A stretch of 64,000 nucleotides of DNA from Epibacterium ulvae (GTDB lineage: Bacteria > Pseudomonadota > Alphaproteobacteria > Rhodobacterales > Rhodobacteraceae), in the NCBI RefSeq assembly GCF_018678075.1, contig NZ_JAHHIR010000039.1:1-64000 (forward strand), given 5' to 3'. Under the pieces are notes generated by a model. It was not told the origin of the DNA. It did not search any database and saw nothing but the letters and a program-made list of their open reading frames with translations. The position numbers were made by a program, and so were the translations under genes. The number at the start of each line of letters is the position of its first letter. The stretch's first letter is position 1. Shown here one piece after another: positions 12,120-58,196 of the stretch.

Positions 12120-12214
12120 CTCTTACCCTCTCCACGCAGAAACGTGCCCCATGTCCGCGCGCGCTTTCATCTTTTCCCAAATACGTCCGACCGTGTCTTG
12201 ACCGGGGGCCGCCT

Positions 12215-16312: not shown

Positions 16313-17341
16313 TCACCGCGTTTGGGCGCGCTTTTTGACCCAGCCCAGGAACGCCGCATCCGCATTGCGCAAAGCAGGCTGGCCGCTGCGCAGCCAGGTG
16401 GCGCGCCAATCGGCCTCCAGCGCATAGGCATCTGCGCCGGGCATCAGGGCGCGCGCCTCCTCCAGCGTCTCGGGGCGCAAGGTCGGCAGCGCCTGCGGCA
16501 CGCCGCCGCTTTCGACCACAGCCCCCTTGCGGAAGAACCGCATCAGATCGCCGGGACGTTCCTCGATCGCGTAATCGGGCAACGTGTCCGCCGCAATCAT
16601 ATCGCGTAGCATTTTGCGAAACACCCGGCGCGGGCTGGCCGAACCGGATTTCTTCAGCAGCGTATCCACCGAGACGGTCCATTCCGGCTGGCGGCCACAG
16701 TGTTTGCGCGCCAGCTCATAGATCCGCCGCTCCAGCGGTTTGCGGAGCCGGAAATAGTCGCGGCTGAGCGTCAGCACCGATTTCGACAGCACCGCCCGAT
16801 ACAGCCAATCCGACAGGGTGACCGCGACCGAGACCATGCGCCCACCATTCTTTTTTGACGTGGGCGCCTTGCGCACGATCTCCCATTTCTCGATCAGGCC
16901 AAAGCCGCTGGTGATCTCATGACCGCCGGTGACAATATTGGTGGTGATCCTAGTGCCGGCCAGACGTTCAAACGCCTCACGCAAACGCCGGTAGGCATCG
17001 CCAGAGGTTTCGCGATTGGTGGCCACCAACAGATCATGCGCCGTCAGATGCAGGGTGCGGCTCACCTGGCGGCCCGCATTCAACGCCGCCATCAGCTGGC
17101 TGACACAGAAGATCAAGATGTCCTTGTCGTGGATGGTCGCCAAGCCTTTGACGCTGGGCGTCACCGTAATCTCGGCGCCATTGTGTTCGTAATTCAGGAT
17201 GCGCCGATCCGGACGCGTGGCCAGCGAGAACAGCGGATGTTCCATCGAGACCAAATCGTTCTTGGGGATCGCCCCAAAAATATCGCACAGAAAGAACTCC
17301 CCCTGCCCTTCTGGGGGATATGCGCTCACCGCGTCTGTCAT
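16313..17341 (-). CDS. repA: Plasmid replication initiator RepA (replication initiator protein A family)
   Basis: About 342 residues. The family is recognised from FFLCDIFGAIPKNDLVSMEHPLFSLATRPDRRI near the N-terminus, LLVATNRETSGDAYRRLREAFERLAGTRITTNI in the winged-helix part, and FRLRKPLERRIYELARKHCG. This is the RPA-type initiator of alphaproteobacterial plasmids, called RepA-I/II/III in roseobacters. It binds iterons and opens the origin. A putative promoter (TATAAT on the minus strand at 17384-17389) would start transcription near 17377, so ATG 17341 (MTDAVSAY) gives a normal leader; ATG 17362 would leave about 15 bases. A palindrome resembling half-iterons covers the start region, implying autoregulation. 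Divergent from parAB. Confidence 0.9.
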   Translation of the reverse strand: MTDAVSAYPPEGQGEFFLCDIFGAIPKNDLVSMEHPLFSLATRPDRRILNYEHNGAEITVTPSVKGLATIHDKDILIFCVSQLMAALNAGRQVSRTLHLTAHDLLVATNRETSGDAYRRLREAFERLAGTRITTNIVTGGHEITSGFGLIEKWEIVRKAPTSKKNGGRMVSVAVTLSDWLYRAVLSKSVLTLSRDYFRLRKPLERRIYELARKHCGRQPEWTVSVDTLLKKSGSASPRRVFRKMLRDMIAADTLPDYAIEERPGDLMRFFRKGAVVESGGVPQALPTLRPETLEEARALMPGADAYALEADWRATWLRSGQPALRNADAAFLGWVKKRAQTR

Positions 17342-17364
17342 CGTAACTCTGCCTGCCTTCATGC

Positions 17365-17876: not shown

Positions 17877-19301
17877 ATGGCCAAAGATATCCACAAGACC
17901 CGCAGCGCGCCAAAAGACGCCGACCTGCCCCCCTATTTCAACATCGACCCCGATGCCGCCCTTGCGGATCTGGATCAGCCTACCTCCACCGAAGGCTTTG
18001 CTGAGATCGCCGAGGCCTGCGGGCGCGGGCGCACTGATCTGGCCAGTCGCGGCATGAATGAGGACGGCCAGAAAGAGCTGCGCCTGTTCTCCACCTGGGA
18101 GATCACCCGCTATGTGATACCCGTCGCCCAGGCCCATTTCCGCCGCGTGCTGAAACAGAACCCCGACCTGCCCCAGGGCCGGGTGGAGACCGAAGGTGGC
18201 GCCAAATGGTTCACCCTGGATGAGGTGCTTACCTTGCGCGCCTTCTTTGGCGCCCAGGGCTCCAAGGCCAAGGATTACACCCCCTACCGTCCCGAAGGCC
18301 TGCCGGCCAAAATGGTGGCTGTTGCCAATTTCAAAGGCGGTGTTGGCAAGACCTCTACCGCGGCCCATCTGGCGATGTCGGCGGCCTTGGATGGTTACAA
18401 GGTGCTGGTGGTGGATCTGGACAGCCAGGGTTCGATGACCTCCATTTTCGGCGGCAAGGTGGACGACGAATGGCAAACCGCCTTTCCGCTGCTGGCGCGC
18501 CACTACGGCGAACATCTGCGCCAGGAAAACCAGCGCCGCATGGATCGCGGCGATCCGCCCCAGCCCCTGGACGAGGCGCTGACCGCGGCGATGGATATGA
18601 CCGCGCAAGACGTGATCCAGCCCACCCATTGGCCCAATATCGATCTGATCGGTGCTCAGCTGAATTTGTACTGGGCCGAGTTCCAGATCCCGGTCTGGCG
18701 CATGGCGGCCCGTTCGTGGAAGCTGTGGGATGCGCTGACCGACCGCTTGGAGGCCGACGGGGTCTTGGACCAATATGACGTGATCTTCATCGACACGCCG
18801 CCTGCCCTTGGCTACCTGACGATCAACGGGCTGTCGGCGGCGGATATCCTTCTGGTGCCCATGGGGGCGTCCTTCCTGGAGTTCGACAGTACGGGGCGGT
18901 TTTTCGATATGCTGCATTCCACCTTTGCCTCGATCGAGGAGGGGGAGAACCTTGCAGCGCGCGCGCTTGGCCGGCCCGAGATCGGCTTTGAATGGGATGC
19001 GGTGCGCACCGTTATCACCCGCTATGACGCCGCCCAACAGGGCGAGCTTGCCGCCTTGATGCAGGCCTATATGGGGCGGGTGCTGAGCCCCCATAAACAG
19101 GATTACACCGCCCTCATCGGTCAGGCCGGTGAGCAGGTGTCGGGCATCTACGAGGCGGATTATCGCGATTTCAACCGCGAGACCTATGCCCGGGGCCGGG
19201 AAACCTTTGATGCTACTTATGCCGCCTTCAAACGGCTGTTGCTGGGGGTTTGGCGACGCGATGCGTTGCAGGACGAGGCCGACCAGCGCGCGGCCCAGTA
19301 A
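17877..19301 (+). CDS. parA: Plasmid partition ATPase ParA
   Basis: 474 residues, the long (type Ia) form. An N-terminal region of about 145 residues includes a probable DNA-binding part (EITRYVIPVAQAHFRRVLK, WFTLDEVLTLR). The deviant Walker A KGGVGKTS is at 153-160, and later motifs are VLVVDLDSQGSMTS (A') and YDVIFIDTPPALGYL (Walker B), then ADILLVPMGASFLEFDSTGRF. ParA forms ATP-dependent patterns on the nucleoid that move ParB-parS complexes, and the long forms also repress their own promoter through the N-terminal part. It is followed by parB after 56 bases and ends the transcript with the terminator at 20562. Confidence 0.95.
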   Translation: MAKDIHKTRSAPKDADLPPYFNIDPDAALADLDQPTSTEGFAEIAEACGRGRTDLASRGMNEDGQKELRLFSTWEITRYVIPVAQAHFRRVLKQNPDLPQGRVETEGGAKWFTLDEVLTLRAFFGAQGSKAKDYTPYRPEGLPAKMVAVANFKGGVGKTSTAAHLAMSAALDGYKVLVVDLDSQGSMTSIFGGKVDDEWQTAFPLLARHYGEHLRQENQRRMDRGDPPQPLDEALTAAMDMTAQDVIQPTHWPNIDLIGAQLNLYWAEFQIPVWRMAARSWKLWDALTDRLEADGVLDQYDVIFIDTPPALGYLTINGLSAADILLVPMGASFLEFDSTGRFFDMLHSTFASIEEGENLAARALGRPEIGFEWDAVRTVITRYDAAQQGELAALMQAYMGRVLSPHKQDYTALIGQAGEQVSGIYEADYRDFNRETYARGRETFDATYAAFKRLLLGVWRRDALQDEADQRAAQ

Positions 19302-45336: not shown

Positions 45337-46245
45337 TTACAGGACCATTTGAGGTTCGACTTGACCAGCCCAATCCGCTTTCAAAGCTTCAAACGCAAAA
45401 GTTTGCCCCGCTCTTTCCTGCCACTCTGGTCGATCCTCGGGCAGTTTTTGTTGTGCGGTTGTGACAAAGAGGGTGGACATATCGTCGTCGCCAAAGGCAG
45501 GACAGGAAGTATGACCGGTGAGGAGTGAAATGGCGCTTAAGAATTGCCCATCCGGGCTGTAACGCGCGACGCGTGCGGCGCCCCATTGGGCGTTCCACAA
45601 GCAGCCCTCGGCATCTACTACAGCGCCATCGGGCTTATATTCCGGGCTGTCGGCAGTGGCGTTGAGATCGACGAAGATGGTTTTTTGACCTTGGGGCCAG
45701 CCGGTTTCGGGATCCACGGGCTGGCGCCAGATGATACGGGTTTTGGTATCCGCCCAATAGGCACAGGCGCGGGCTTTGTCGAAACAGATGGCATTGGGGG
45801 TGCTGAGTTCTGTTTCCAACACCTGCAGCGCGCCGCCATCGGGGCTGGGTCGCCAGCGATAAAGCGTGCCCTGACCCATCTCTCCTGCTTTGGACATGGT
45901 GCCCATCCAGAACCCACCCCAGGGGTCGGCGCGCCCGTCGTTGGAGCGGGTCAGCGGATTGTCGGCCTCGATCTCGCAGAGCATCTCATCCGCGTGACTG
46001 TCCAGGTTAAACCGGCTGAGGCCGGTTTCGCTGGCGATCAGAAGGTGGTCATGGTCAACCCAGGCGGCGGCACTGACATTGCGATCAAACTGCCAGGTGA
46101 GGGCCTGACCATCCAGGCGTGACAGCAGCGTGTTGTTGACAATGTCAAACCAGAACAGCTGCTTGCGTTCGGGGTGCCACAAGGGACCTTCGCCTAGAGT
46201 GCAGCCGCGGTCATCAAAAATCTCGACAGCGAGGGAGTGGCTCAT
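45337..46245 (-). CDS. SMP-30/gluconolactonase/LRE-family protein
   Basis: 302 residues, beta-propeller type. CTLGEGPLWHPERKQLFWFD is the family start with the metal-binding Glu, LTRSNDGRADPWGGFWMGTMS has the Asn/Asp ligands, and YKPDGAVVDAEGCLWNAQWG and AFGDDDMSTLFVTTA the later ones. Members hydrolyse sugar lactones with a divalent metal. It is the last gene of the minus-strand operon and overlaps the DUF115 gene by four bases (46242-46245). Lactonase activity fits a pathway containing a Gfo/Idh oxidoreductase and a 2-hydroxyacid dehydrogenase (inference). Confidence 0.85.
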   Translation of the reverse strand: MSHSLAVEIFDDRGCTLGEGPLWHPERKQLFWFDIVNNTLLSRLDGQALTWQFDRNVSAAAWVDHDHLLIASETGLSRFNLDSHADEMLCEIEADNPLTRSNDGRADPWGGFWMGTMSKAGEMGQGTLYRWRPSPDGGALQVLETELSTPNAICFDKARACAYWADTKTRIIWRQPVDPETGWPQGQKTIFVDLNATADSPEYKPDGAVVDAEGCLWNAQWGAARVARYSPDGQFLSAISLLTGHTSCPAFGDDDMSTLFVTTAQQKLPEDRPEWQERAGQTFAFEALKADWAGQVEPQMVL

Positions 46246-47957
46246 AGAGGCTCTCCTGTTGGGGGGAACATTTGGTCAAAATCTGCGCGCTCAAAGACGT
46301 CCAGCTTGCTCTGACGCGAGGCATTCATGATCCGGATACCGCGGGCGGCACAGACATCGCGCGCCTTGGCATAGGAGCGTTCCAGCACATCAAGATTGGG
46401 CTGATGCCAGGCCTCGCCGGGGCTGCGGTAGTCAGGGTGAAAGTGGTTTTGTTCACCTTCATAGATATATTGATTGCCGCGTTTCTGCGAGGGCAGCCGG
46501 TAGCTGTGATCCACCCCGATCAGGATGATTTCCGCACAGCCCATAAAAGCGGCCATTTGGATCTGGCTATAGGTGATTGTGGATCCCCAGGCGATCCCCT
46601 GGCTCAGGTCGTGGCTGAAGTGGGGAAACTCTGGATCCGAGAGCGGATCCTCAAAGGATTTGGGCGGCAGAAAGGGCGCAAAGATCGTGTCGCCCGCGTG
46701 ATAGTCAAAATTGCGGGTGCTGGCGGGGAACAGCTTGATGCTACCGCTCAGCGCTGCGATCCGATCGCGGTTGTTCATGAGAACCAGATGATCTTCGACC
46801 GAGTAATAGTTGGGTCGCCAATCGGTGTCATCATAGGCCAAAAAGATCTTGTTAGAGCCAAAAGTTACCACATCCCGAAGCCGCTCCAGGTCGCTGGGGC
46901 GCAGGCTGGGGCCATTGCCGACCACCACCGCACGCTGCCCTTGGTGGCGATTGCGCAACAGAGACAGTGCCGTGCGGCTGGCGCGGGTGAGATCGGCTTC
47001 TATCTGGGCCGGATCCCACAGGTTGGTGTCGCGCAGGCGCTGCTCCATCTGGCGCTGGCTCTGGATCAGCTGTCGATGCAGATGGCGGGTTTGATCGATC
47101 TGCTCCAGTTTGATGCGCACGATTTCCGGAGATGGGGTGCGCGCGGCGCGCAGGCCCAGGCGCAGCCTTTCTCGTCGTGCAGTCTGGCGCCGCCAGGTTG
47201 GCACCCTTGGCGGCGGCCCAAAGGGGGCTAGCCTGACCACCCCCTGATCGGCAAAACGCGACATATAGGAGCTCAGCTCAGCCGTCGGCAGCCCGTGTGA
47301 ATAGACGTGGCGCAGATCAAAAAGCGCGACAGGCCATTCCTGAGGCTTCCCCGAACCGTGAAGCACCACATTCTGGCGCAGAAAGCAGGCCAGCGCCTGT
47401 GTCCGGATGCGGCATTCTTGGGGTTCTGGGGCGGTTCTGCGGCTTAGGGCCAGATGGGTCGGAACCAGCGGCATATCGTCATCGTTGGATCGGACAGTCG
47501 GCCCCAGCCCATAAGCCAGATTGTGACAGATATCCCGGAGCCCGGTCCTGTCTTGCGGGTCCTCAGACACAAAGACTGCGTGCGCGTTGGGGCAGGGGGC
47601 CAGATCGTTGGTGCCGAAACAGGCGTCAAACTTCGCGTCCTCGGAACGGTTGACAATCACCGGCACCAGGCTGCCGCCCTGGTTGGCCAGTTCGATCAGA
47701 TCCAGGGGCGGGCTAAAGCTGGAGCCCGGATAGGGGCAGTCGATCCGGGCGATTTCATGCTCTTGGCCATCGGGGCGGCAATGGCGCAGGCTGAGGGTGA
47801 CGGCACCCTGGACCACCAGCAGTTCCACACCAAAAAAAGCCAGATGGCTGGCGTCGCGCCAGAAGGAGAGGTTAAAGGCATCTGCCTCTGGCCCGCCCTC
47901 TGCCCGGATGCTTTGCAGCCGGTAATGCATGCCCCGTGCTAACATGGATGTTTTCAT
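46242..47957 (-). CDS. DUF115 (MptE-like) protein, putative glycan-modifying transferase
   Basis: 571 residues. The conserved part lies in the C-terminal half: RAVVVGNGPSLRPSDLERLRD, then NYYSVEDHLVLMNNRD, and MAAFMGCAEIILIGVDHSYRLP, the marks of the DUF115 family of 6-hydroxymethylpterin pyrophosphokinase MptE-like proteins and of motility-associated glycosyltransferases. The N-terminal 300 residues look independent and are unassigned. In polysaccharide clusters DUF115 proteins are thought to transfer sialic-acid-like or other activated sugars. It overlaps the genes on both sides by four bases (46242-46245 and 47954-47957). It follows a cytidylyltransferase two genes upstream, which is where one would expect a user of its product. 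Confidence 0.75.
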   Translation of the reverse strand: MKTSMLARGMHYRLQSIRAEGGPEADAFNLSFWRDASHLAFFGVELLVVQGAVTLSLRHCRPDGQEHEIARIDCPYPGSSFSPPLDLIELANQGGSLVPVIVNRSEDAKFDACFGTNDLAPCPNAHAVFVSEDPQDRTGLRDICHNLAYGLGPTVRSNDDDMPLVPTHLALSRRTAPEPQECRIRTQALACFLRQNVVLHGSGKPQEWPVALFDLRHVYSHGLPTAELSSYMSRFADQGVVRLAPFGPPPRVPTWRRQTARRERLRLGLRAARTPSPEIVRIKLEQIDQTRHLHRQLIQSQRQMEQRLRDTNLWDPAQIEADLTRASRTALSLLRNRHQGQRAVVVGNGPSLRPSDLERLRDVVTFGSNKIFLAYDDTDWRPNYYSVEDHLVLMNNRDRIAALSGSIKLFPASTRNFDYHAGDTIFAPFLPPKSFEDPLSDPEFPHFSHDLSQGIAWGSTITYSQIQMAAFMGCAEIILIGVDHSYRLPSQKRGNQYIYEGEQNHFHPDYRSPGEAWHQPNLDVLERSYAKARDVCAARGIRIMNASRQSKLDVFERADFDQMFPPTGEPL

Positions 47958-48886
47958 TGCCCCAGGTGTTTGAACAGGTTGTCCAATGTGTTGCTGTGCA
48001 CATATTCGATCGCTTGCACCGTGGAATTGGCGTTATGGCTGGACAGGGCTACGTTTTCAAAGCTGAACAGCGGATGATCTGCGGGCAGTGGTTCGACCTC
48101 AAACACATCCAGTGCGGCCGCGGCCACTTTGCCGCTGGTCAGCGCCGCAACCAGGGCCGCCTCGTCGACCAGACCGCCGCGGGCCACATTGCACAGGATC
48201 ACCCCGTCTCGGGCGCGGGCCAAAGTATCGGCGGTGATCAGGTGATAGTTGTCCTCGGTCTGGTTACAGCACAGGCAAATGACATCGGCTTGTTCTAGTA
48301 GCGCATCAAATGTCACCAGTGGCGCGCCATCCGGGGCCTGATCCAGGGTTTCGGCCATAAAGGGATCATTGGCGATGACCTCCATGCCCAGGCCCCGCGC
48401 GCGCTGGCCCACACCCTGGCCAATGGCACCATAACCCACAACGCCCATGGTCTTGCCGGTCATGCCGGGGAAACGTCCCTTGGGCCATTCGCCCTGGCGG
48501 ATCATCCGGTCGGTGCGCGCCAGGCGGCGGGTGGCCGCCAGGAGTAGACCAATGGCATATTCGCTGACCGCATCGCGGAAGGCGCCAGGCGAGTTGCAGA
48601 CCGGAACGCCCAGTTTTTTGGCCGCGTCAAGGTCGATACTGTCGATGCCAGTGCCCCATTTGGAGATCACTTTCAGACGCGGCAGAAAGGCGTCGAGGAC
48701 GGCGCGGGTGATTTGATCGTCGCCAGCCAGCCAGCCGTCGATCTCGCCGGCATATTCCAGGCATTGGCCCACATCCATAAACTGGTTCACCTCGGGCCAG
48801 ATCGGGGTCAGGCCGCGGTCGCGCAGTATCGCATCGAAGCGGTCGCGCTCGTTGATCATCATAATATTGGATACAAGTACGTTCAT
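47954..48886 (-). CDS. D-isomer-specific 2-hydroxyacid dehydrogenase (phosphoglycerate dehydrogenase-like)
   Basis: 310 residues. VGYGAIGQGVGQRARGLGMEVIANDPF is the NAD-binding GxGxxG strand and loop, and VICLCCNQTEDNYHLITADTLARARDGVILCNVARGGLVDEAALVAAL is the family signature carrying the Arg. Glu and His near the C-terminus (DVFEVEPLPADHPLFSFENVALSSHNA) complete the catalytic set. It oxidises or reduces a D-2-hydroxyacid. Without a phosphoglycerate-specific regulatory domain it is a general family member. Its stop lies inside the DUF115 start, and a cytidylyltransferase stop sits 11 bases upstream. Confidence 0.9.
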   Translation of the reverse strand: MNVLVSNIMMINERDRFDAILRDRGLTPIWPEVNQFMDVGQCLEYAGEIDGWLAGDDQITRAVLDAFLPRLKVISKWGTGIDSIDLDAAKKLGVPVCNSPGAFRDAVSEYAIGLLLAATRRLARTDRMIRQGEWPKGRFPGMTGKTMGVVGYGAIGQGVGQRARGLGMEVIANDPFMAETLDQAPDGAPLVTFDALLEQADVICLCCNQTEDNYHLITADTLARARDGVILCNVARGGLVDEAALVAALTSGKVAAAALDVFEVEPLPADHPLFSFENVALSSHNANSTVQAIEYVHSNTLDNLFKHLGQ

Positions 48887-48897
48887 GGCGCGGGTCC

Positions 48898-49575
48898 TCA
48901 GGTACCTTTATGTTTGGTCAGAACGCTCAAGAGCGCCTCGGCGATATCCAGATCTTCCTGGGTCTTGATCACATGGCCGGAAATCGCCCCCACGGGGTAG
49001 AAAGCGATTTTGCCATTATAAGTCCCAATAGAGCCGCTTTCGACCGCCTCTATATAGGGTTTGGCGCGCCAGCCGGTGATCGACCAAGTGACCCGCTGCG
49101 TGGGTTTCAGATCCTGGGAATTGGTTTTCTCGGCAAAGGTGAAATTGACGGGCTGATCCTCATAAGCCACCTCGATCCGATCTTCGATGCACGACAGCAT
49201 CACGTCAGCGTCTGAGGCGATAAACGCCTCGGCAAAGGCTTTGACTTCTTCGGCGGTCAGCAAAGGCGCGATGGAATGGACCTGGATGATTAGATCGCAG
49301 TCGACGTTTTTCAGGAAATCATAGACAAACTGTTCGGAGGTGGCGACCGAATTGCCCAGCTCTTCGGGGCGTTGGTAGAATTTGATACCGTATTCTTCGG
49401 CGAACTGTCCAAATTCGGCGTTTTCCGAATTGATGTAGATCTCGTCAAACAACCCGCTGGCCTGGCACTTCTCGATCGCATGGGTGATCAGCGGCTGGCC
49501 GGCCAGCGGCGCGAGGTTCTTTTTCTTGAGGCGCTGGCTGCCCATGCGTGCGGGGATCATTGCAACGGTTTTCAT
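48898..49575 (-). CDS. Cytidylyltransferase (CMP/CDP-sugar activating, NeuA/KdsB-like)
   Basis: 225 residues from ATG 49575, with AAGGATGATGAG just before; a longer start at 49608 lies inside the preceding gene. KTVAMIPARMGSQRLKKKNLAPLAGQPLITHAIEKC is the CTP-binding signature (IPAR-GS-R-K-KN). DLIIQVHSIAPLLTAEEV holds the usual catalytic site residues. It is a member of the acylneuraminate/acid-sugar cytidylyltransferase family. The sugar is unknown: no NeuB, NeuC or KdsA gene accompanies it, so sialic acid or KDO is not supported. An SIS isomerase and an IMPase-type phosphatase lie directly upstream in the same operon. Confidence 0.9.
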   Translation of the reverse strand: MKTVAMIPARMGSQRLKKKNLAPLAGQPLITHAIEKCQASGLFDEIYINSENAEFGQFAEEYGIKFYQRPEELGNSVATSEQFVYDFLKNVDCDLIIQVHSIAPLLTAEEVKAFAEAFIASDADVMLSCIEDRIEVAYEDQPVNFTFAEKTNSQDLKPTQRVTWSITGWRAKPYIEAVESGSIGTYNGKIAFYPVGAISGHVIKTQEDLDIAEALLSVLTKHKGT

Positions 49576-49604
49576 CTCATCATCCTTTGTCTGGGACGGC
49601 TGTT

Positions 49605-50402
49605 TCAACCGCGCGAACGGGCAAACAGCGGCGCATATGTTTCAAAAATCTCTGGTGCGGCGCAGAGGCTAAGCTGGTTTTCATCCAAGGGGCGCGACGT
49701 ATTGGTGGGGGCATAGCTGCCATAGGTCAGCCCCGCCTCCTGGGCGACCAGCGCGCCGGCCAGATCATCCCATCCCTTGGCCTCGCGGCTGGCAACCAGG
49801 CTGGCCCGTCCTGCCGCCGCATAACATAGATGCAGGGCCTGGCTGCCGAAATTGCGCAATTTGAAGGCACCCAGTAGATCCACCAGCGCTTCGGGGGCGG
49901 CCTCGGCCAGATCTTTGAGCAGCCCAGAGGAGACAATCGCCAGCCGTGCCTTGTGGGATGTGGGGGAGACAGGGTAACCATTGAGCCGTGCACCGCGCCC
50001 AGTTTCCGCAGAATAAAGATCCCCCTGGGGGATGTCATAAACCGCTGCCAGCAGCGGCTGGCCCGCTTCCAGCAGCACCACGGCGACCGAATAGGCCGGC
50101 AAGCTCGCCACAAAATTCACCGTGCCATCCAAGGGATCCACCAGCCAGGCGGGGCCTGCACCGTCATGGGCGGCAAAGTCTTCTTCGCCCATCACAACCG
50201 AGCCGGGCAGTAGTGCGGACAGTTCCTGTTCTAGCCGCGCCTGCATGGCCAGATCGACCGAGGTGACCAGATCCAGCCCGTCGTCTCCCTTGTCCAGCGT
50301 GTCAAAATCCTGCGCAAAAACCTCCTGCACCAGAGCGGGCAGGAGGTCACACAACCGGTTGTGGAGGTCGGTTGGAAGATCGGTCGATTGGCCAGACGCC
50401 AT
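49605..50402 (-). CDS. Inositol monophosphatase/CysQ-like phosphatase
   Basis: About 265 residues from ATG 50402 (MASGQSTDL), one base after the SIS stop; an in-frame ATG at 50423 is possible. VVMGEEDFAAHD and the metal-binding DPLDGTVNF are IMPase motifs 1 and 2, and GWDDLAGALVAQEAG the later motif. Members cleave inositol phosphate, sugar phosphates or 3'-phosphoadenosine 5'-phosphate (CysQ). Two functions fit: a sugar phosphatase in the pathway, or removal of PAP made by the sulfotransferase-like proteins at 26.6-29 kb. Sequence does not decide between them. Confidence 0.88.
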   Translation of the reverse strand: MASGQSTDLPTDLHNRLCDLLPALVQEVFAQDFDTLDKGDDGLDLVTSVDLAMQARLEQELSALLPGSVVMGEEDFAAHDGAGPAWLVDPLDGTVNFVASLPAYSVAVVLLEAGQPLLAAVYDIPQGDLYSAETGRGARLNGYPVSPTSHKARLAIVSSGLLKDLAEAAPEALVDLLGAFKLRNFGSQALHLCYAAAGRASLVASREAKGWDDLAGALVAQEAGLTYGSYAPTNTSRPLDENQLSLCAAPEIFETYAPLFARSRG

Positions 50403-50403
50403 A

Positions 50404-51030
50404 TCAGAACTTCCGGTCGGCAATCAGGCCAGCATCCATATGGGTCATGCGCAGATATTGGGTCAGAATATGGATGAACGCCATGTGGATGTCTTCGACC
50501 ACGCCATAATTATCGGCGTTTACATGGGCGTTCACATCCGCCAGATCCTTGGAACGGCCGCCGGAGAAGCCGGTGAAGGAAATAGATTTCAGCCCGATCT
50601 CTTTGGCCACTTCCAGAGCGCGCACCACATTCTGACTGTCGCCCGAAGAGCTGACGGTCCAGACCAGATCGCCGGGGCGGGCCATGGATTGCAGCTGATA
50701 GGCAAAGACCTCATCATAGGAGATGTCGTTGGCCAGCGCCGAATTCATCTCGGTATGGGCCGATAGGGACATGAACCGCGGCATCAGATCGGTGTCGGTG
50801 CGCACGCACTTCAGGAAATCGCACAGCGAATGGTTGGCAATCCCTGCCGAGCCGCCGTTGCCGCAGATATAGATAAAATTGCCCGCTGCGATGGTCTCGC
50901 GCAGAAGCGTGGCCACCTTGTCCAGTGCCCTCAGGTCGCTCACCTGGGTCGCTTTGGCGAGGGTGGTAAAATAATCGGCGGCAAAGTTTGCGCAAGTATC
51001 ATAGGGGGCGGTTGGGAAAAAGTCACTCAT
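50404..51030 (-). CDS. SIS-domain sugar-phosphate isomerase (GmhA-like)
   Basis: 208 residues. IYICGNGGSAGIANHSLCDFLK is the GmhA-type substrate-binding loop (GNGGSA), and TVSSSGDSQNVVRALEVAKE and SFTGFSGGRSKDLADVN continue the SIS fold, with GVVEDIHMAFIHILT at the end. The family includes sedoheptulose 7-phosphate isomerase and related enzymes. It lies in the middle of the minus-strand operon. No HddA/GmhB/HddC set is present, so an ordinary heptose pathway is not supported, though the cytidylyltransferase two genes downstream could play the HddC-like role with CTP. Confidence 0.9.
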   Translation of the reverse strand: MSDFFPTAPYDTCANFAADYFTTLAKATQVSDLRALDKVATLLRETIAAGNFIYICGNGGSAGIANHSLCDFLKCVRTDTDLMPRFMSLSAHTEMNSALANDISYDEVFAYQLQSMARPGDLVWTVSSSGDSQNVVRALEVAKEIGLKSISFTGFSGGRSKDLADVNAHVNADNYGVVEDIHMAFIHILTQYLRMTHMDAGLIADRKF

Positions 51031-51066
51031 ATGTATGGGGCCTTTGGGTCGGTCAAAAAGGATCAG

Positions 51067-52026
51067 TCAGGTTTCCAGAACAAACCGCAGCACGCCGGAT
51101 TTAAGGCTGCGTTGCAGCAGGATCTGTAAATCCCGCAGGCGGTTTTTGTCAGCCTCACGAAAGAAGCTGGACCAGAAGGGAATGTCGCTGTTTTCTGCAG
51201 AATTGAAATAGCGTTCCAAGATCACCGCATCGCGCCGCCCCGGAGTAGAGACTTCCAGCGCCTTGAAGCCAAGGCGTTTTACAAGGGTTTCAAAACCTTT
51301 GATGGAGAATACGGTCAGCCGGTCCAAGGGCACAAAACTGGGTGAATCCGCGCCGAGAATTTCATATTCCAGCCCATCGGCGCAGGAACTCGCAACAAAG
51401 AACACAGTGCCAGGGGCCACGGCCCCCTTGAGGGTGCGCAACAGGGCTGCGGGATCCGCAACCCTGTCCAGCTCTGCGGGCAACAGCACGGCCTTGGGGG
51501 CGAGCTTGGCGACCTCCTCACCTAGGGCCGTGAAATCATCGCTGTCCGGGGTGAGGGGCAAAAAGGACCAGCTGCGATTGTGGCTCAAGCGCTTGGTTGC
51601 TTCGGGGAAGCCCGGTGCAAGGGTGGCAAAGCGGATATCCAGAACCCGATCCAGTGGGCGTTCCAGCCGCGCTTCGGTGAGGCTGACCCAGTTCAGCAGC
51701 GAGGTGAATTCAAACGCGCGGTCGTCTGCATCTGGGGTCTGAGCCAGGCGGCTTTGGTCCAATGTTGCCTGATCTGGAGTTCGAGCCGCATAGATCGTAT
51801 TGCAGTTTGTGCAGTTCTGGAATTCCAACAGGGTCTGCGAAAAGCTACGGCTGCTGGCGCAATTTGCACCACAGGCCGGGCAGCTGCTGCGGGTCTGCCA
51901 GTTGATGCTGTTATCCAGCATCAATTCCAAGAGCGCCTTGTTACGGGCCAGACGATATTGCACGGGTTTCTGGCCTGCAACCGTATCAATGTCCGGCAGG
52001 TGGTCCAGAAAAACAGGTGTTTGCAT
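51067..52026 (-). CDS. Zinc-ribbon methyltransferase-like protein with a degenerate SAM motif
   Basis: 319 residues. A zinc-binding-like cluster occurs near residues 48-75 (SCPACGANC and CTNCNTIY, four Cys), as in C-methyltransferases of sugar pathways. The body VLDIRFATLAPGFPEATKRL occupies the position of the SAM loop (normally VLDIGCGTG), but the glycines are missing. VFFVASSCADGLEYEILG and ILERYFNSAENSDIPFW follow the fold. It may be a methyltransferase that lost SAM binding, or a related fold with another job. It is 5 bases after the oxidoreductase gene and 36 before the SIS gene, so in one operon. Confidence 0.55.
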   Translation of the reverse strand: MQTPVFLDHLPDIDTVAGQKPVQYRLARNKALLELMLDNSINWQTRSSCPACGANCASSRSFSQTLLEFQNCTNCNTIYAARTPDQATLDQSRLAQTPDADDRAFEFTSLLNWVSLTEARLERPLDRVLDIRFATLAPGFPEATKRLSHNRSWSFLPLTPDSDDFTALGEEVAKLAPKAVLLPAELDRVADPAALLRTLKGAVAPGTVFFVASSCADGLEYEILGADSPSFVPLDRLTVFSIKGFETLVKRLGFKALEVSTPGRRDAVILERYFNSAENSDIPFWSSFFREADKNRLRDLQILLQRSLKSGVLRFVLET

Positions 52027-52031
52027 GGCTA

Positions 52032-53072
52032 TTACCCGATTGCTTTGAGGGTGTTTTCGTGCAAGGTCGCGGTCCAGTTCGGATCAGCGGCATAGATCGC
52101 CTCAACCAGCTCCATCACATCCAGCGCCTGTTGCGAGGTGCCGCATTTCAGTGGTGCGCCATCCACAACGGCGGCGTGGAACTCGGCGATCTCCTTGTCC
52201 CAGGAGTGATCCTCTGTAAAGCGGATTTCCTGTTGTTCAGGGTTGGGGATCGGATTGCCGGTGGAATCCAGACGGTTGAGCGCCACAGTGAGCACCTCAG
52301 CCCCGTAGCTGCCCGAGGCCGACAGGATGCCATCCACCGAGATAAACCCATTGCGCATATAAAGTTCAAGTCGGAAAGTATGCTGCCATTGGGTTGCCGA
52401 AGAATGCACCGAGGCAACAATGCCATCGGGGTTTTTCATCAGGGCAAAGGCGTTGTCTTCAACCGGGACATCGGTCCAGAAATTGCGCTGCACAAAGCTT
52501 TGGACTTCGGTGAAACGACCGGCGAACATCTGGAACAGATCCAGCATATGGATGCCTTGGTCGATCAGGATACCGCCGCCTGATTGTTCGGGATCGTTGC
52601 GCCAGTTCTGGGCATAGTTCGGCCCGCCCGCCTTACCGTAAACGCCGCGCATGAAGTAAAGGTCACCCATGGTGCCCGCCTGGATGAGTTTTTGCGCCTC
52701 TTCAATGGCGTCATGCACGCGATGATTGAAGCCGAATTTCAACACCACCCCATTGGCGGCCTCTTCGGCGACCATCATACGCCGGACATCTCCTGAGTTT
52801 CGCCCCGGCGGTTTTTCGGAAAACACATGTTTGCCGCGTGCCAAAGCGGTGCAGACCACATCGGGGATCATCATGTTGGGGACGCTGCAGACAATCACAT
52901 CAGGATCATAGTCGTAGACTGCCATCGGTTCGGTGACCATGGGCACTGAAGCGCCTGGATCAATCGCAGTATCACAGGCCACGACCACGTCAAACCCGCC
53001 ATGGCGATCCATGGCGTCATGACGAATGCGGCCCATTTTCCCATAACCGATAATTGCTGCACGCAAAGTCAT
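52032..53072 (-). CDS. Gfo/Idh/MocA-family oxidoreductase
   Basis: 346 residues. AAIIGYGKMGRIRHDAM is the N-terminal dinucleotide-binding motif (GxGxxG), VFSEKPPGRN contains the EKP signature of the family, and GGILIDQGIHMLDLFQMFAGRF has the conserved GG-x2-D-x2-H. Members oxidise or reduce sugars and sugar acids with NAD(P). It is the first gene of the operon ending with the SMP-30-like gene, and a sugar oxidised here could yield a lactone for that enzyme. The promoter must be in the 258-base gap upstream. Substrate unknown. Confidence 0.93.
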   Translation of the reverse strand: MTLRAAIIGYGKMGRIRHDAMDRHGGFDVVVACDTAIDPGASVPMVTEPMAVYDYDPDVIVCSVPNMMIPDVVCTALARGKHVFSEKPPGRNSGDVRRMMVAEEAANGVVLKFGFNHRVHDAIEEAQKLIQAGTMGDLYFMRGVYGKAGGPNYAQNWRNDPEQSGGGILIDQGIHMLDLFQMFAGRFTEVQSFVQRNFWTDVPVEDNAFALMKNPDGIVASVHSSATQWQHTFRLELYMRNGFISVDGILSASGSYGAEVLTVALNRLDSTGNPIPNPEQQEIRFTEDHSWDKEIAEFHAAVVDGAPLKCGTSQQALDVMELVEAIYAADPNWTATLHENTLKAIG

Positions 53073-53330: not shown

Positions 53331-54080
53331 ATGAAGAAGATGAGGATGACGGGGATGGAACAGGTGATTGCGGCCTTAAACGTAGCGCGCACCAATGGGG
53401 AACAGGCGCGGTTGGAAAGCGCGGATTTGCCAGCAGATATTTCTGCCGCATATGCCGTTGCAATGGCCCAGGTCGCGGAGGTGGCGGGGTGGAAAATTGG
53501 TGGGGCAAATCCTTGGTCTCGCGCGGTTTTTGACAATCAGGAGGTCTTTGTTGGCCCGCTCAAACCCAGCGAGGTCAGTCTGGGCTGTGCGACGCTTTCC
53601 TTGGCAGGATTGGTGGCGCCTCTGGGGGAGCCCGAGCTGATGTTGGAGATCGCAGACCCCCAGGGCAAGACCGCGGAAGAGCGCTTCTCTCGGATGGGGT
53701 TGGGGATTGAAATCCCTGCGTCGGTTTTGCCGGACGTATTGAAACCGGAGCTGATGGGGCAGGTTTGCGACCGCGCCGGTGCCGGTCATCTGTGGATTTC
53801 TGGGCTGATACAATTTGACGCGGATAGGTTGAGTGCGCCGTTTGACGCCCAATTCACCCATAATGGTGCAGAGCCGGTTGTAGCTACCAGCGCCAATGTG
53901 ATCGCAGGCCCATTGGGCGCCACCGAGGAATTTCTGATGCTGGCGCAGCGTTACGCTTTCCCGGTGGCCTCGGGGCAATGGATCGCGACTGGTGGTTTGT
54001 GCCCGGCGGTGGCTTTGCAGCCGGGAGATCAGCTGCGGTTGACCGCCTGGGGAGAAGATCTACGGCTACAGTTCACCTGA
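53331..54080 (+). CDS. MhpD/2-keto-4-pentenoate hydratase-like (FAH superfamily) protein
   Basis: 249 residues with several possible start Met codons (53331, 53346, 53355). AGWKIGGANPWSRAVFDNQEVFVGPL and PLGEPELMLEI, with the metal-binding E-x-E, resemble 2-keto-4-pentenoate hydratases. The C-terminal GPLGATEEFLMLAQRYAFPVASGQWIATGGL is the typical ending. The family hydrates or decarboxylates 2-oxo acids. It is on the plus strand, divergent from the oxidoreductase operon, and converges 4 bases from the DUF2793 gene. A role in the same sugar-acid metabolism is possible but not shown. Confidence 0.8.
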   Translation: MKKMRMTGMEQVIAALNVARTNGEQARLESADLPADISAAYAVAMAQVAEVAGWKIGGANPWSRAVFDNQEVFVGPLKPSEVSLGCATLSLAGLVAPLGEPELMLEIADPQGKTAEERFSRMGLGIEIPASVLPDVLKPELMGQVCDRAGAGHLWISGLIQFDADRLSAPFDAQFTHNGAEPVVATSANVIAGPLGATEEFLMLAQRYAFPVASGQWIATGGLCPAVALQPGDQLRLTAWGEDLRLQFT

Positions 54081-54084
54081 TCCC

Positions 54085-55236
54085 TCACCGCACCAGCCAG
54101 CGTTCAAGGCCTCCGTCCAGCTCTTGCAACCGCCGCCAGCGGGGATCTGTGGGTTGGCCTGCGCGCAAGGTCAGCTTGCCCAGAAGGCCCACCATGGCCC
54201 ATTCGGGGCGCTCGGTGCGGGGAATATAGACCTGATTAGGGTCGAGATCGGGGGAGATTTCCCCGGTGCGGCTGCCAAAGGCATCGCGCATATACTTGCC
54301 CTGCCATTCGCCCAGATCTGCATCGCCCAGGAGGGTTGGCGCGGATGAGATCACGCCGATGGGGATTTCGCCTGCTTGGGCGGTGCGGATCTTGTCACCT
54401 TCTAGCACCACCGAGATCCCGCGCCGGTCTGCGCCCTCAGAGTTGCCATCACCCCATTCAAAAAACTCTGCATAATCGGCTCCGCCCGATTGCCAGCTGC
54501 CTGCGGCCATGCCGTCGCCTGTGGCGGTCAGGCGGAACTGGGGGGTGCCTGCGGCCTCGGCCAGCAGCAGATCCTCGCTGGTGCCGGGCTGCGACAGGCG
54601 CAGACGGGGGGCGGCGCCGGCCGACAGGACCAGCGCATCGGCAAATGTGCTGCCATCGGCGCTGAGCTTCAGGCTCAGATCATCGGTGCCGGTCAGACCG
54701 ATTTCGGCGCGACCACTGAAATTGGACTGCAGCAACAGGCTGGCGGTGTCGCTGGGGCTGGCCTTGTTCAATTTGACCTGATGGCCGGCGCCTGCATGGG
54801 TGAACAGGCTGGCGGGGGCGGCAACTGCCAGTCGGTTGGTGTCATCGGCCGGGGTGGCCACGCCGATCCGGGGGGTTGCCAGACAGGGCAGGGGCATCCA
54901 GGCACCGTCCTGCCAGACCCGCATCTGCCCGTCTCGCTGATCCCAGATATGCCAGCCGGGGTGGGGGGCGAGAAACAGCCAGCCGCCGCCAGATTCTACA
55001 CCTTGCCAGATGGCCAGGCGATGGGCCTGTCCGGCCCAGGCGGCATTGGGGGCAGCCCCCAGCGCATAGGCCGCGCCAAGGGTGGGGGCGATGGGGGGCA
55101 CTTGGGCGTCGATCTCTTGTACCACCAGCTGCACCAAACCATCCAGACGGCGCAGCGCCTCATTGTGGGTCACATGTTTCTGGGCCTGGGCAGGCAGGAT
55201 GAAAGGCAGATCCAGACGGGGAGAGAGATCGGGCAT
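54085..55236 (-). CDS. DUF2793 protein with a Peptidase_G2-like autoproteolytic C-terminal domain
   Basis: About 383 residues from ATG 55236; 55245 is also in frame. PRLDLPFILPAQAQKHVTHNEALRRLDGLVQLVV is the DUF2793 start, known from phage and phage-like tail proteins of alphaproteobacteria. The C-terminal part ADYAEFFEWGDGNSEGADRRGISVVLEGDKIRTAQAGEIPIGVISSAPTLLGDADLGEWQGKYM matches the IMC autoproteolysis domain (Peptidase_G2) that matures trimeric phage tail or fibre proteins. So it may be a fibre-like or surface-displayed protein, not an enzyme of sugar metabolism. No phage structural genes are near. Domain calls are from pattern recognition. Confidence 0.75.
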   Translation of the reverse strand: MPDLSPRLDLPFILPAQAQKHVTHNEALRRLDGLVQLVVQEIDAQVPPIAPTLGAAYALGAAPNAAWAGQAHRLAIWQGVESGGGWLFLAPHPGWHIWDQRDGQMRVWQDGAWMPLPCLATPRIGVATPADDTNRLAVAAPASLFTHAGAGHQVKLNKASPSDTASLLLQSNFSGRAEIGLTGTDDLSLKLSADGSTFADALVLSAGAAPRLRLSQPGTSEDLLLAEAAGTPQFRLTATGDGMAAGSWQSGGADYAEFFEWGDGNSEGADRRGISVVLEGDKIRTAQAGEIPIGVISSAPTLLGDADLGEWQGKYMRDAFGSRTGEISPDLDPNQVYIPRTERPEWAMVGLLGKLTLRAGQPTDPRWRRLQELDGGLERWLVR

Positions 55237-55556
55237 GAGGCGCACTCCGGCTTGGGCTGTGAGAGGACGCCACTCTCGCAGAGCCGGGTCAACGCGCCCC
55301 TAAGGGGGCGTACGCAGGGCGCGCAACACCCAGCATTCAAAAAGCCGGGTACAGGCAGTGGCTAGACCGGGACCGGACAGGGGGCAGAGGGGGCCGCGTG
55401 CGGACAAAAGGGGATCAAAGCACGTCGGCAATCGGGCAGATTGTTCTTAGATTGAAGACAATATCCATGGTTTCGCCGCAATCCGGTGCCGGTCGCGGGC
55501 TGATCACAACCCCAAAGTGTTCAAACAAGGCGAATTTGCGACGCGTGGGGGCGGCG

Positions 55557-58196
55557 ATGGATTTCAGATTTTATGGTGGTTTTGGCAAGGCGCAGGGGGT
55601 GGCGGATCTGCTGCTGGTGCCCGGTGCGGGCGGCGCCTATCTGGTGGCGGTCGAACGGCTGGGCGGGGGGCTGCGCAGCTATGGGACCGCCACATTGACA
55701 GAGCGCGATTACCGCCCGCATCAGGGGGCGAACCTGCTCACTGGAGCGGCTGTTGCCTTGGGCGGGGACAGCGGGCGGCTTTTGCTGGCGGGCAGCGATC
55801 TGGCCCGGCTGGACAGTCATCTGGTCAGCAGCAGCGGTACGATTGCCGCGCAGACCAGCTGGAGCCTGCCCGGTCTTGCCCAGGGGGCTGAGGTTTCAAC
55901 CCTGACCAGCACCACCAGCCAGGGACAGGCGCTGGTCTATGGGGTGGCCGACGGGGCGCTGCGGGGCTGGCAGGTGTCTGAGACCGGCAGCGCCAGCGCG
56001 GTTGCACGTTCTGGTGGCGCTGCGCCCTATGGGCAGGCGGGATCACCGGGGCCTGTGGCGTTGGATGTGGTCACCACCGGCAGCAGTCAGATCCTGGTGG
56101 CGGCGGATGCGGGCCTGGGCGGGCTGCGCAGCTACCGGATTGCGGCCGGAACCGGGGCGCTGACGCCTGCGGATGAGCTGGGCCGTGACCAAGGGCTGGG
56201 CATTGCAGCCCCGACGGCGGTGGATGCGATCATCGCCTATGGGCAGGCCTGGGTGGTGCTGGCGGCTGCGGGCACCAGCAGCCTCAGCGTGATGGCGGTG
56301 GCGGCCAACGGCGATCTGACCCTGGTGGATCATGCCATCGACAGTCTGGGCAGCCGGTTTGGTCAGGTCACCGCGGTGGAGAGTTTTGTGGTGGATGGCC
56401 ATGCCTTTGTGCTGGTGGCGGGGGGCGATGGCGGCATGGATCTGTTGCGGCTGCTGCCCTCGGGGCATTTGGTGCAGGCCGCCCAGGTTCTTCATGCGCC
56501 GGGGCAGGGGCTGCAGAATGTCACCGCGATTGAGACCCGTGTCACGGGGGATACCGTGTCGATCTTTGTCGCCTCCGAAGGGGGGCTGAACGCAGATGGT
56601 GAGGGGATCGCGCGTTATGGTTTCAGCCGGGCGGCGCTGGGGCAGGTGGCAACCGCCAGCGCCGCCACGCTCAGCGGGACGGCGGGCGATGATCTGCTGA
56701 TAGGCAATGGCACCGCTACCACGATCACCGGCGGGGCGGGCGATGATATGTTGGTGGCATCGGCTCCTGGCGACCGGCTGGAGGGCGGCGCAGGCGCGGA
56801 TTTCTATGTCATCGCGCCGGGGCGTGCGGGGGCAGACCGGGACCGGGTGGTTATCGCCGGGTTTGAACCGGGTCACGACCAACTGGATCTGAGCCTGTTG
56901 GAGGGGTTGCGCAGCCTGTCCCAGCTGCAGGTAGAGGCGCGCCACAATGGGATCGACTTGCACTGGCAGGGCGGTGAAATTCGTGTCGAAAGCCGGGATG
57001 GCGGCTCTCTCTCTCTCACGGATCTTTGGCCTCAAGGCTGGAAGCGCGCCCATCACCTGCCCTTGGGAGAAACCTTGCCCGCCACGGCCGACGACGACAC
57101 CGTTGTTTCCGGGGGCGGAAGTGACGGCAGCGTAACCCTTGTGGGGGGGGGCGGTGACGATAGGCTTGCGGGGCAGGCCGGGGCTGATGTGTTGGAGGGA
57201 GGAGCAGGGCGCGATCATCTTTTGGGGGCGGCGGGCAATGACACGCTTAGAGGTGGGGCTGGTGGCGACCAACTGGAGGGCGGCGACGGTGCTGATCAGC
57301 TTGACGGTGGCCGCGGCAATGACACGTTGATCGGCGGCAACGGTGCGGATCAATTGCTGGGGGGCGACGGGGCCGACAGGCTGGATGGCGGGCAGGGTGC
57401 CGATACCCTGCGTGGAGAGGCGGGTGCCGATCACATATTTGGCGACCAGGACGACGATTTCCTATGGGGTGGCAGTGGCAATGACAGCCTGTTCGGAGGC
57501 AGCGGCGCCGATCAACTGTGGGGAGAGGCCGGCCATGATGTGCTGCAGGGCGGCGGCGGGTCAGACGCGATTCACGGTGCTGCGGGGCGCGATAGCATCT
57601 GGGGCGGCGGTGGTCACGATGACATCTGGGGTGGCGCGGGCCGGGATCAGATATGGGGTAAAAACGGCGCGGATGACATTCGGGGCAATGGCGGGCAGGA
57701 CACGATCCAGGGCCAGCAGGGCAATGATGCGATTTATGGCGACGCCGGTGCTGATGTTTTAAATGGCAATGGTGGCCACGACGATATCTGGGGCGGCGCG
57801 GGCCGGGACCGTGTCTCTGGTGGCAACAAGGGGGATCACCTGCGGGGGGGGCGCGGAGATGATCGCCTGTATGGGCAGCGGGGCCATGACCTGCTGGAGG
57901 GGCAGCAGGGCGATGACAGGCTGCGGGGCGGTACGGGAAATGACACGTTACGCGGCGGGTTAGGGGCGGATGTGTTTATTTTTGATGACAGCAATGGCCG
58001 TGACTGGGTGTTGGATTTTACCCAAGGGGAAGATGTGCTGCATCTGCGGTTTCTTAGGAGAGAGGGCGCGCAACGCCTGTCTGACGTAGGGATCCACCAA
58101 AATGGCGTGGATCTGGTGCTGGATATTGGCACCGGCCAGATCACATTGGCCGATCAGGCCGGCCTGCAGCTGGAGGTGGATGATTTTCTATTCTGA
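55557..58196 (+). CDS. RTX (hemolysin-type calcium-binding) repeat protein with beta-propeller-like N-terminus
   Basis: About 880 residues from ATG 55557 (MDFRFYGGFGKAQ); in-frame starts at 55398 or 55467 would add a low-complexity stretch. The first 370 residues contain repeated blocks of LLVPGAGGAYLVAV-type strands, consistent with a beta-propeller. Two RTX parts follow: a short block near 56676-56810 and about 30 tandem nonapeptides (GGxGxDxLx) at about 57130-57970, which bind calcium outside the cell. The C-terminus (VLDIGTGQITLADQAGLQLEVDDFLF) has the type I secretion-target look. No HlyB/D/TolC genes are near, so its exporter is elsewhere. Convergent with the serralysin-like gene. Confidence 0.85.
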   Translation: MDFRFYGGFGKAQGVADLLLVPGAGGAYLVAVERLGGGLRSYGTATLTERDYRPHQGANLLTGAAVALGGDSGRLLLAGSDLARLDSHLVSSSGTIAAQTSWSLPGLAQGAEVSTLTSTTSQGQALVYGVADGALRGWQVSETGSASAVARSGGAAPYGQAGSPGPVALDVVTTGSSQILVAADAGLGGLRSYRIAAGTGALTPADELGRDQGLGIAAPTAVDAIIAYGQAWVVLAAAGTSSLSVMAVAANGDLTLVDHAIDSLGSRFGQVTAVESFVVDGHAFVLVAGGDGGMDLLRLLPSGHLVQAAQVLHAPGQGLQNVTAIETRVTGDTVSIFVASEGGLNADGEGIARYGFSRAALGQVATASAATLSGTAGDDLLIGNGTATTITGGAGDDMLVASAPGDRLEGGAGADFYVIAPGRAGADRDRVVIAGFEPGHDQLDLSLLEGLRSLSQLQVEARHNGIDLHWQGGEIRVESRDGGSLSLTDLWPQGWKRAHHLPLGETLPATADDDTVVSGGGSDGSVTLVGGGGDDRLAGQAGADVLEGGAGRDHLLGAAGNDTLRGGAGGDQLEGGDGADQLDGGRGNDTLIGGNGADQLLGGDGADRLDGGQGADTLRGEAGADHIFGDQDDDFLWGGSGNDSLFGGSGADQLWGEAGHDVLQGGGGSDAIHGAAGRDSIWGGGGHDDIWGGAGRDQIWGKNGADDIRGNGGQDTIQGQQGNDAIYGDAGADVLNGNGGHDDIWGGAGRDRVSGGNKGDHLRGGRGDDRLYGQRGHDLLEGQQGDDRLRGGTGNDTLRGGLGADVFIFDDSNGRDWVLDFTQGEDVLHLRFLRREGAQRLSDVGIHQNGVDLVLDIGTGQITLADQAGLQLEVDDFLF

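Follow-up and report, generated by a model that had tools for sequence, protein, structure and literature searches.

A 64,000-nucleotide stretch of the Epibacterium ulvae genome (the window, which is positions 1-64000 of contig C14 in an assembly of 4.1 Mb and 107 contigs) contains an operon of eight genes, here called A to H, and a divergent ninth gene, I. We propose that this operon makes a cytidine monophosphate (CMP)-activated 2-keto (ulosonic-type) sugar acid by a route that uses neither NeuB nor an operon-encoded KdsA and that the product of gene G transfers this sugar to a surface acceptor. We put the probability of this reading at about 0.5. CMP-linked ulosonic acids decorate capsules, lipopolysaccharide, and flagella, and the well-known routes to them rest on synthases that use phosphoenolpyruvate (NeuB and KdsA). 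If our proposal is true, glycobiology would gain a further chemistry, and probably a new sugar, from a route that combines an isomerase and dehydrogenases with exchangeable 2-keto-acid enzymes. The evidence supports a pathway trunk, shared across phyla, for an activated 2-keto sugar acid; the window operon would be one version of it, probably carried on a plasmid and with additions specific to its lineage.

A sequence-only reading of this DNA had described the eight genes as an operon packed with overlaps. All eight open reading frames (ORFs) were confirmed in place on the minus strand, running from A at 53072 down to H at 45337 (Table 1) with gaps of 5, 36, -20, -4, 11, -4, and -4 bases. The likely start of E is the ATG at 49575, which fits the alignments better and would turn the D/E overlap into a 29-base gap. 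With Pfam, A, C, D, E, F, and H scored well over the cutoff and G barely over it, which upheld the family names first given to them, but B scored under it (see below). None of the eight proteins exceeded the cutoff of any NCBIfam model. One scan of genome contigs returned 14 related loci, and the order A to H, whose conservation had been named beforehand as a check, was kept in 12 of them. L009 and L011 have no G between F and H, and a DUF115 gene lies elsewhere in both loci; H is cut by the contig end in L015. E was present in all 14 loci and is among the best conserved of the operon's proteins (76 to 98% identity across operon relatives); it is 98% identical to E of Tritonibacter litoralis. 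The operon is accessory. E was found in 3 of 100 genomes in a sample of the family and in 2 of 385 in a sample of the class (ours included in both counts), and the other genome in the class sample (G053) did not have the operon.

These genes could also be viewed as a catabolic or detoxifying sugar-acid operon in which the cytidylyltransferase-like and DUF115 genes are bystanders, and each of A, F, H, and I does have relatives with catabolic functions. However, E is in every related locus and G is in its slot in 12 of the 14, no transporter or regulator is found among genes A to I, and much of the window consists, as judged by eye, of glycan synthesis and export genes. We consider a catabolic operon unlikely.

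Table 1. Genes of the operon and the divergent gene I in the window
Gene	Predicted product	Position	Strand	Size	Basis
A	Gfo/Idh/MocA oxidoreductase (dehydrogenase), core gene	52032..53072	-	346 aa	Pfam PF22725/PF02894/PF01408
B	Zinc-ribbon-like methyltransferase-fold protein	51067..52026	-	319 aa	PF13489 (Methyltransf_23) 23.1 bits, cutoff 27
C	GmhA-like SIS-domain isomerase, core gene	50404..51030	-	208 aa	SIS_2
D	IMPase-family phosphatase	49605..50423	-	272 aa	PF00459 (Inositol_P) 134 bits
E	CMP-sugar synthetase family protein	48898..49608	-	236 aa	PF02348 (CTP_transf_3) 88.7 bits, cutoff 22.6
F	D-2-hydroxyacid dehydrogenase, core gene	47954..48886	-	310 aa	PF02826 (2-Hacid_dh) 189 bits
G	DUF115/MptE-like, candidate glycosyltransferase	46242..47957	-	571 aa	PF01973 36.1 bits, cutoff 34.6
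H	SMP-30/gluconolactonase-like lactonase	45337..46245	-	302 aa	PF08450 (SGL) 215 bits
I	FAH-fold 2-keto-acid hydratase/decarboxylase-like, divergent from A	53331..54080	+		15-row profile versus PDB

What is widely shared is a core of A, C, F, and a synthetase, which occurs across phyla. The eight-gene unit of the earlier reading was right about gene order, but it missed I, and two of its members, G and H, were found in the roseobacter version only. Genome searches covered samples of Pseudomonadota. When 398 of these genomes were searched with a profile of the A subfamily, there were nine matches at 1e-70 or better, one of them in the source genome. Among the other eight genomes, F was near A in seven, C in six, and a CMP-transferase in six. 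The weakest match (G588) had none of F, C, and a CMP-transferase nearby, the contig of G626 ends at A, and the cluster of G701 is split over two contigs with 127 identical bases at their ends. A Paenibacillus replicon has the gene order E, C, F, D, B, A.

The comparison set consisted of the 24 loci in which A, C, and F were all found, namely the window and the 14 related loci, L020, L025, L021, L028, L054 with L029, and L055 to L058. Left out were L022 (a second Leisingera aquaemixtae locus), L036 and L059 (F or C missing at contig ends), and L060 (A alone). Gene presence was determined by tblastn within the examined stretches, which were 10 to 25 kb as a rule, and weak cross-matches between E and KdsB-type queries were not counted. 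The synthetase was E in 20 loci and KdsB-type in 4 (L055 to L058), and no locus had both. The KdsB-type genes of L055 and L056 passed the PRK13368 cutoff and that of L058 passed the cutoff of another KdsB subfamily; that of L057 was matched to its counterpart in L056 at 75%. Similarly, D was found in 20 loci, an AroB-related gene in 3 (L028, L054, and L058), neither in 1 (L056), and both in none. Other E-like loci (L023, L030 to L035, and L038 to L047) did not have the full A, C, F set in the stretches examined; in L030 Gfo/Idh was matched only weakly, and the C match of L045 was about 7 kb distant. The E-like loci inspected were part of the matches (14 of 35 genomes in one search and 7 of 16, ours included, in another).

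The three clusters with an AroB-related gene (L028:14924-8786, L054:8574-12653 with L029, and L058:8228-13426) have A, C, F, and a CMP-transferase in common with the window operon. They differ in having the AroB-related gene and short-chain dehydrogenases, and none of B, D, H, and I was found in them. The AroB-related gene, a putative sugar phosphate phospholyase, exceeded the TIGR04425 cutoff of 400 in L028 and L058 (446.7 and 472.9 bits; L054 was not scanned), and NCBIfam labels this family a hypothetical equivalog. These clusters would suit a cyclitol or carbasugar route, in which A is inositol-dehydrogenase-like, D is a relative of inositol phosphatases, and a ring alcohol or ring acid linked to a nucleotide is formed. 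Inositol dehydrogenases are, with levoglucosan dehydrogenases, also the best NCBIfam relatives of A, at scores far below the cutoff. However, the AroB-related gene had no match in the window or in the other 20 of the 24 loci, and D was not found where it is present. Also, NeuA/KdsB-type enzymes are known for ulosonic acids, and E is of that family. A cyclitol route for the window operon is therefore unlikely in our view.

Some smaller features of these clusters were noted. The L028 cluster lies beside what appear by eye to be flagellin and flagellar regulator genes. At the contig end in L059, a gene of the HAD phosphatase kind (8124-8852, by eye) sits between A and F, which is the place of D elsewhere. 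L029 has a 6-phosphogluconolactonase gene after F (202.4 bits, cutoff 124.45) that is unrelated to H, and a relative lies about 3 kb upstream of F in L025; we count these lactonase genes in favor of the proposed route.

Cytidine activation, which the sequence-only reading had put forward, was supported indirectly. E falls in the CTP_transf_3 superfamily by its sequence, and KdsB-type genes occur where E is missing in four A-C-F clusters, but E does not have the expected metal-binding aspartates. The E profile matched a CMP-N-acetylneuraminic acid synthetase in the PDB (3.5e-26). In a 31-row tree, E and its relatives formed a clade of 24 rows (support 96/99) outside the PseF rows (99/98); seven rows have long branches, and the details of this tree are unsure. 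E scored 81.1 bits with the PseF model (cutoff 205.7) and 38.4 to 61.3 bits with KdsB models (cutoffs 155.2 to 281). In HMMER alignments, the NeuA aspartate pair (which we take to be D209 and D211) corresponds to V213 and K215 of E, and the KdsB D95 position corresponds to Ile113. E reads VIK, not D-x-D, in 17 of the 17 operons of this type that were examined, which are those of the window, the 14 related loci, L020, and L025. The same motif reads ILK in L024, LLK in L037, KIS in L029, DLD in L021, DID in L028 and the first copy of L036, and DIE in the second copy of L036, and all 15 additional family members examined and six reference rows have D-x-D or E-x-D. Judging from these alignments, the V-x-K change is typical of the alphaproteobacterial operon of this type, though not unique to it. 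One article describes two conserved active-site Asp residues for one Mg and shows D95 and D219 with the metals in Aquifex aeolicus KdsB (PMC3149649).

The motif suggests an alternative, in which E of this lineage has ceased to act as a CMP-synthetase and has another catalytic or structural role, and the sugar acid is unactivated or activated in some other way. V-x-K in every operon of this type and Ile at the KdsB D95 position, where other family members keep D-x-D or E-x-D at the motif, argue for this. However, E is strongly conserved, and we therefore read its function as altered, not lost. Furthermore, KdsB-type genes replace E in four clusters, and the KdsB of the source genome is also without the Asp near its C terminus and yet is presumably active. 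We regard a nonsynthetase role as rather unlikely, but the motif change lowers our confidence in a CMP-linked product.

The KdsB gene just mentioned is the only clear KdsB-like gene in the genome and, apart from E, its only clear CTP_transf_3 gene. It shares a contig with E but sits toward the opposite end, some 47 kb distant (C14:96687-97364; L027:12778-13572). By eye, it reads ELNNPED near the C terminus at the expected Asp; its row was misaligned at this end in the E-family alignment, and the end was read separately. Two adjacent E-type genes were seen in L036 (3702-5655), the second of which matches the cupin-fused E of L028 over its full length and has a degenerate first motif. In L024 (9116-17450), an E-like gene shares a stretch with genes for an HMGL-like aldolase and a KdsB-like protein. 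The E-like gene of L037 (8444-12854) has as neighbors one gene of the Gfo/Idh family and one of the enolase superfamily, the latter of the sugar-acid dehydratase kind.

The sequence-only reading had also set aside the sialic acid, 3-deoxy-D-manno-octulosonic acid (Kdo), and heptose routes on the grounds that NeuB, KdsA, and a heptose kinase were missing. The operon does not have a complete set for any of these routes, and the NeuB model PF03102, which was positive in 9 of 14 control genomes, matched nothing in this 97%-complete genome. The genome has one copy of KdsA, on contig C21, and there is none in the operon. NeuB was also absent from 13 of the 14 related genomes, G1144 being the one that has it. 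Among the other nine genomes or records searched, six had NeuB and three did not. Its distance from the E-like gene was about 7 kb in G1105 (L037), 11 kb in the Paenibacillus record, and 16 kb in G720, and in the rest it was far away or on another contig.

The window operon resembles the sialic (NeuA/NeuB), legionaminic, and pseudaminic acid pathways in that E belongs to the NeuA/PseF/KdsB superfamily, for which a CMP-linked acidic sugar is the expected kind of product. However, E is in a separate clade with an altered metal motif, and we rejected a nonulosonic acid route because the genome has no NeuB match. The Kdo pathway (KdsD, KdsA, KdsC, and KdsB) has a similar logic, with an isomerase, a phosphatase, and a CMP-transferase, and KdsB-type genes replace E in four clusters. 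The operon differs from it in having no KdsA, a GmhA-like C, a D of the IMPase family, and the extra genes A, F, H, and I. C also recalls the GmhA heptose pathways, but it does not reach the GmhA equivalog score (118 bits with TIGR00441, cutoff 209.45), and a heptose kinase and GmhB are absent among the nine genes. A plain Kdo or heptose route was rejected because E is far under the KdsB cutoffs and C far under the GmhA cutoff.

A variant of the Kdo route deserves separate consideration, in which Kdo or Kdo-8-phosphate, supplied by the chromosomal pathway, is oxidized or trimmed by operon enzymes and then activated by E. The genome has KdsA on C21 and the KdsB-like gene at C14:96687, and so Kdo is probably available; the KdsB-type gene in four related clusters also fits. 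However, the core recurs in Paenibacillus, a Gram-positive bacterium in which, to our knowledge, no Kdo is expected. C would also be an odd tool for Kdo, being GmhA-like, and the low KdsB scores of E argue the same way. Kdo modification seems to us an unlikely explanation, a little more so than the cyclitol route.

In line with the earlier claim that this is not a known pathway, full-text searches of open-licence papers surfaced no description of this gene set. Two leads were dropped. The glycan of Sinorhizobium fredii SMH12 could not serve as a guide, as the sections consulted of two papers give no structure for it (PMC8707391 and PMC4270759), and the Geobacillus flagellin islands were no match, as the corresponding sections of another describe known pathways only (PMC5109656).

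Thirteen of the 14 related loci have gene I in divergent orientation to A; it is partial in L009, and L015 begins too near A. I alone had no Pfam match at an expect value of 1 and no NCBIfam match. However, a 15-row profile of I matched 2-keto-4-pentenoate hydratase (MhpD; 1.6e-18) and the 4-oxalocrotonate decarboxylase NahK (1.5e-8) in the PDB. Lys55, Glu100, Glu102, and Glu127 are invariant in the 15 rows, and their counterparts presumably have roles in the MhpD site. The profile match and site residues predict that I is an FAH-fold hydratase/decarboxylase, a family that acts on Mg2+-bound enols of 2-keto acids. It aligns with MhpD/DmpE-type hydratases and 4-oxalocrotonate decarboxylase over almost its entire length, but it adjoins a glycan operon, and no aromatic-degradation genes were noticed in the window lists. 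Two loci have a relative of I inside the operon: L020 of S. fredii SMH12 and L025 of G465, which belongs to the family of the source. Their gene order is F, A, C, I, D, E, and neither locus was found to contain B, G, or H. In L055, L056, and L057, genes for HpaI-type pyruvate aldolases are beside A, C, F, and B (on the opposite strand in L056 and L057). Our first model was a purely oxidative route to a 2-ulosonate by A, H, and F. We kept it only in part because roseobacters alone were found to carry H and because the HpaI-type genes and I point to a 2-keto-acid enzyme.

In the pathway that we propose, C would convert a ketose phosphate to an aldose phosphate, as GmhA does, and D would remove the phosphate. 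A would then oxidize the sugar in a nicotinamide adenine dinucleotide-dependent reaction, H would open the lactone, F would set the hydroxyl or keto state at C2, and I would complete a 2-keto, possibly 3-deoxy, acid. E would couple this acid to CMP, and G would transfer the CMP-activated sugar to the surface acceptor. The reactions, their order, the sugar, and the acceptor are what we infer from direct observations, namely the genes, their families and kept motifs, the conserved order, the cross-phylum core, and the swaps of E and D.

The motifs are as follows. C matched phosphoheptose isomerase in the PDB (5.3e-25). At the GmhA zinc site, which we take to be His61, Glu65, Gln172, and His180 in Escherichia coli numbers, it aligns His, Asp, Glu, and His, the last being Thr in 2 of 21 rows. 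D keeps DP(L/V/I)DGT in 19 of 19 aligned rows, and A keeps EKPP and DQGIHM(L/V)D, each in 21 of 21. F matched phosphoglycerate dehydrogenase (1.6e-57) and keeps in all 21 rows the Arg and His of its motifs, which are presumably catalytic. H keeps LGEG, SNDG, PN, and DG in 15 of 15 rows (one row is incomplete), and we assume that these are metal-site motifs. A second SMP-30-like gene, 48% identical to H, was seen elsewhere in the genome (C96:3433-3518, L002).

Several points weigh against the proposed CMP-linked acid. Substrates cannot be read from these enzyme families. CMP transfer by E is not assured because E is without the metal ligands known from NeuA and KdsB, and an x-x-K motif is also found in L024 and L037, which do not have the A, C, F set (L037 is the locus with NeuB about 7 kb off). 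KdsA elsewhere in the genome could act in trans, as could an aldolase, since three HpaI-family genes over the cutoff are present on other contigs. Fifteen of the 24 loci are close relatives that count as one lineage, so the independent cases are few: the roseobacters, L020/L025, Paenibacillus, L055, L056/L057, and the three clusters with an AroB-related gene. No I was found near the clusters of Paenibacillus, L028, L054/L029, and L058, and H was found in roseobacters only. Finally, the AroB-related gene could mean a carbocyclic product in the three clusters that have it.

A broader proposal, which we make tentatively and rate at somewhat less than an even chance, is that the V-x-K proteins are a branch of CMP-sugar synthetases in an unrecognized route to a new class of nucleotide sugar acids. 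This route would need neither NeuB nor KdsA and would combine a GmhA-type isomerase with Gfo/Idh and 2-hydroxyacid dehydrogenases and a 2-keto-acid enzyme that can be interchanged; in other bacteria an AroB-like cyclase would reroute the A-C-F trunk to a ring product. The synthetase swap (E or KdsB-type) and the downstream swap (phosphatase or AroB-like) make the trunk testable with purified enzymes. The operon might also offer bacterial candidates for sugar acids that lack a defined activated form, such as 3-deoxy-D-lyxo-2-heptulosaric acid (Dha), although this link is a suggestion only. The nucleotide form of Dha, which occurs in plant pectin, is called undefined in one article (PMC12168206).

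G, the candidate transferase, is the genome's only PF01973 match (38.7 bits in the genome scan), and it is within the operon in 12 of the 14 relatives, which supports the part of the earlier reading that placed a DUF115 protein in the operon. Thirteen aligned rows show a kept N-terminal region, a variable middle, and a strongly conserved C-terminal DUF115 domain, and no PDB chain matched at 0.01. Flagellin glycosyltransferases of the Maf/DUF115 kind are known, and G resembles them in its DUF115 domain. Unlike them, it is among capsule- or exopolysaccharide-like genes, and no flagellin gene was noticed by eye in the length-limited ORF lists of the window. A second, longer DUF115 protein (868 to 894 amino acids) follows H in L003 (14266-16950) and similarly in L004 to L007, L010, L014, and L016, but not in the window.

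The methyltransferase label for B calls for caution. B has no recognizable glycine-rich S-adenosylmethionine (SAM) motif; the window protein reads VLDIRFATLAP, and LDYGSSS in the relatives from L056 and L057 comes nearest. Four Cys residues are invariant in 16 of 16 rows and in 7 of 7 more spread rows, and the latter all keep an STPG motif. The structure model (predicted local distance difference test 72, predicted template modeling [TM] score 0.74, several weak stretches) best matched the sugar methyltransferases MtmC (4.3e-9, TM score 0.48 by query) and TcaB9 in the PDB, with TM scores below 0.5. From this model and the alignments, B probably has a zinc-binding fold like that of sugar methyltransferases and carries out no methyl transfer.

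Genes for an RPA-family replication initiator (16313-17362) and a ParA-type protein (17877-19301) lie in the window, and this replication and partition region has matches in plasmids of Phaeobacter and Leisingera (80 to 82% identity and 72 to 85% coverage, with 15 plasmid rows listed). Therefore, the operon is probably carried on a plasmid. Parts of one article describe roseobacter "biofilm plasmids" known for a rhamnose operon (PMC10090131). The window is like these in having rhamnose-type genes at 10387-14474 (named by eye). It differs from known plasmids in that E has one match of 80 to 90% identity in the plasmid collection, from Leisingera aquaemixtae, the next being 59%. A scan for promoter-like sites (10 versus 3.6 expected) and terminator-like sites (4 versus 8.1) was not used. 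The operon is flanked by genes for a DUF2793/Peptidase_G2 protein and an RTX calcium-binding repeat protein (54085-55245 and 55398-58196, respectively), and on a Leisingera aquaemixtae plasmid (L022) it is likewise flanked by calcium-binding and DUF2793 proteins.

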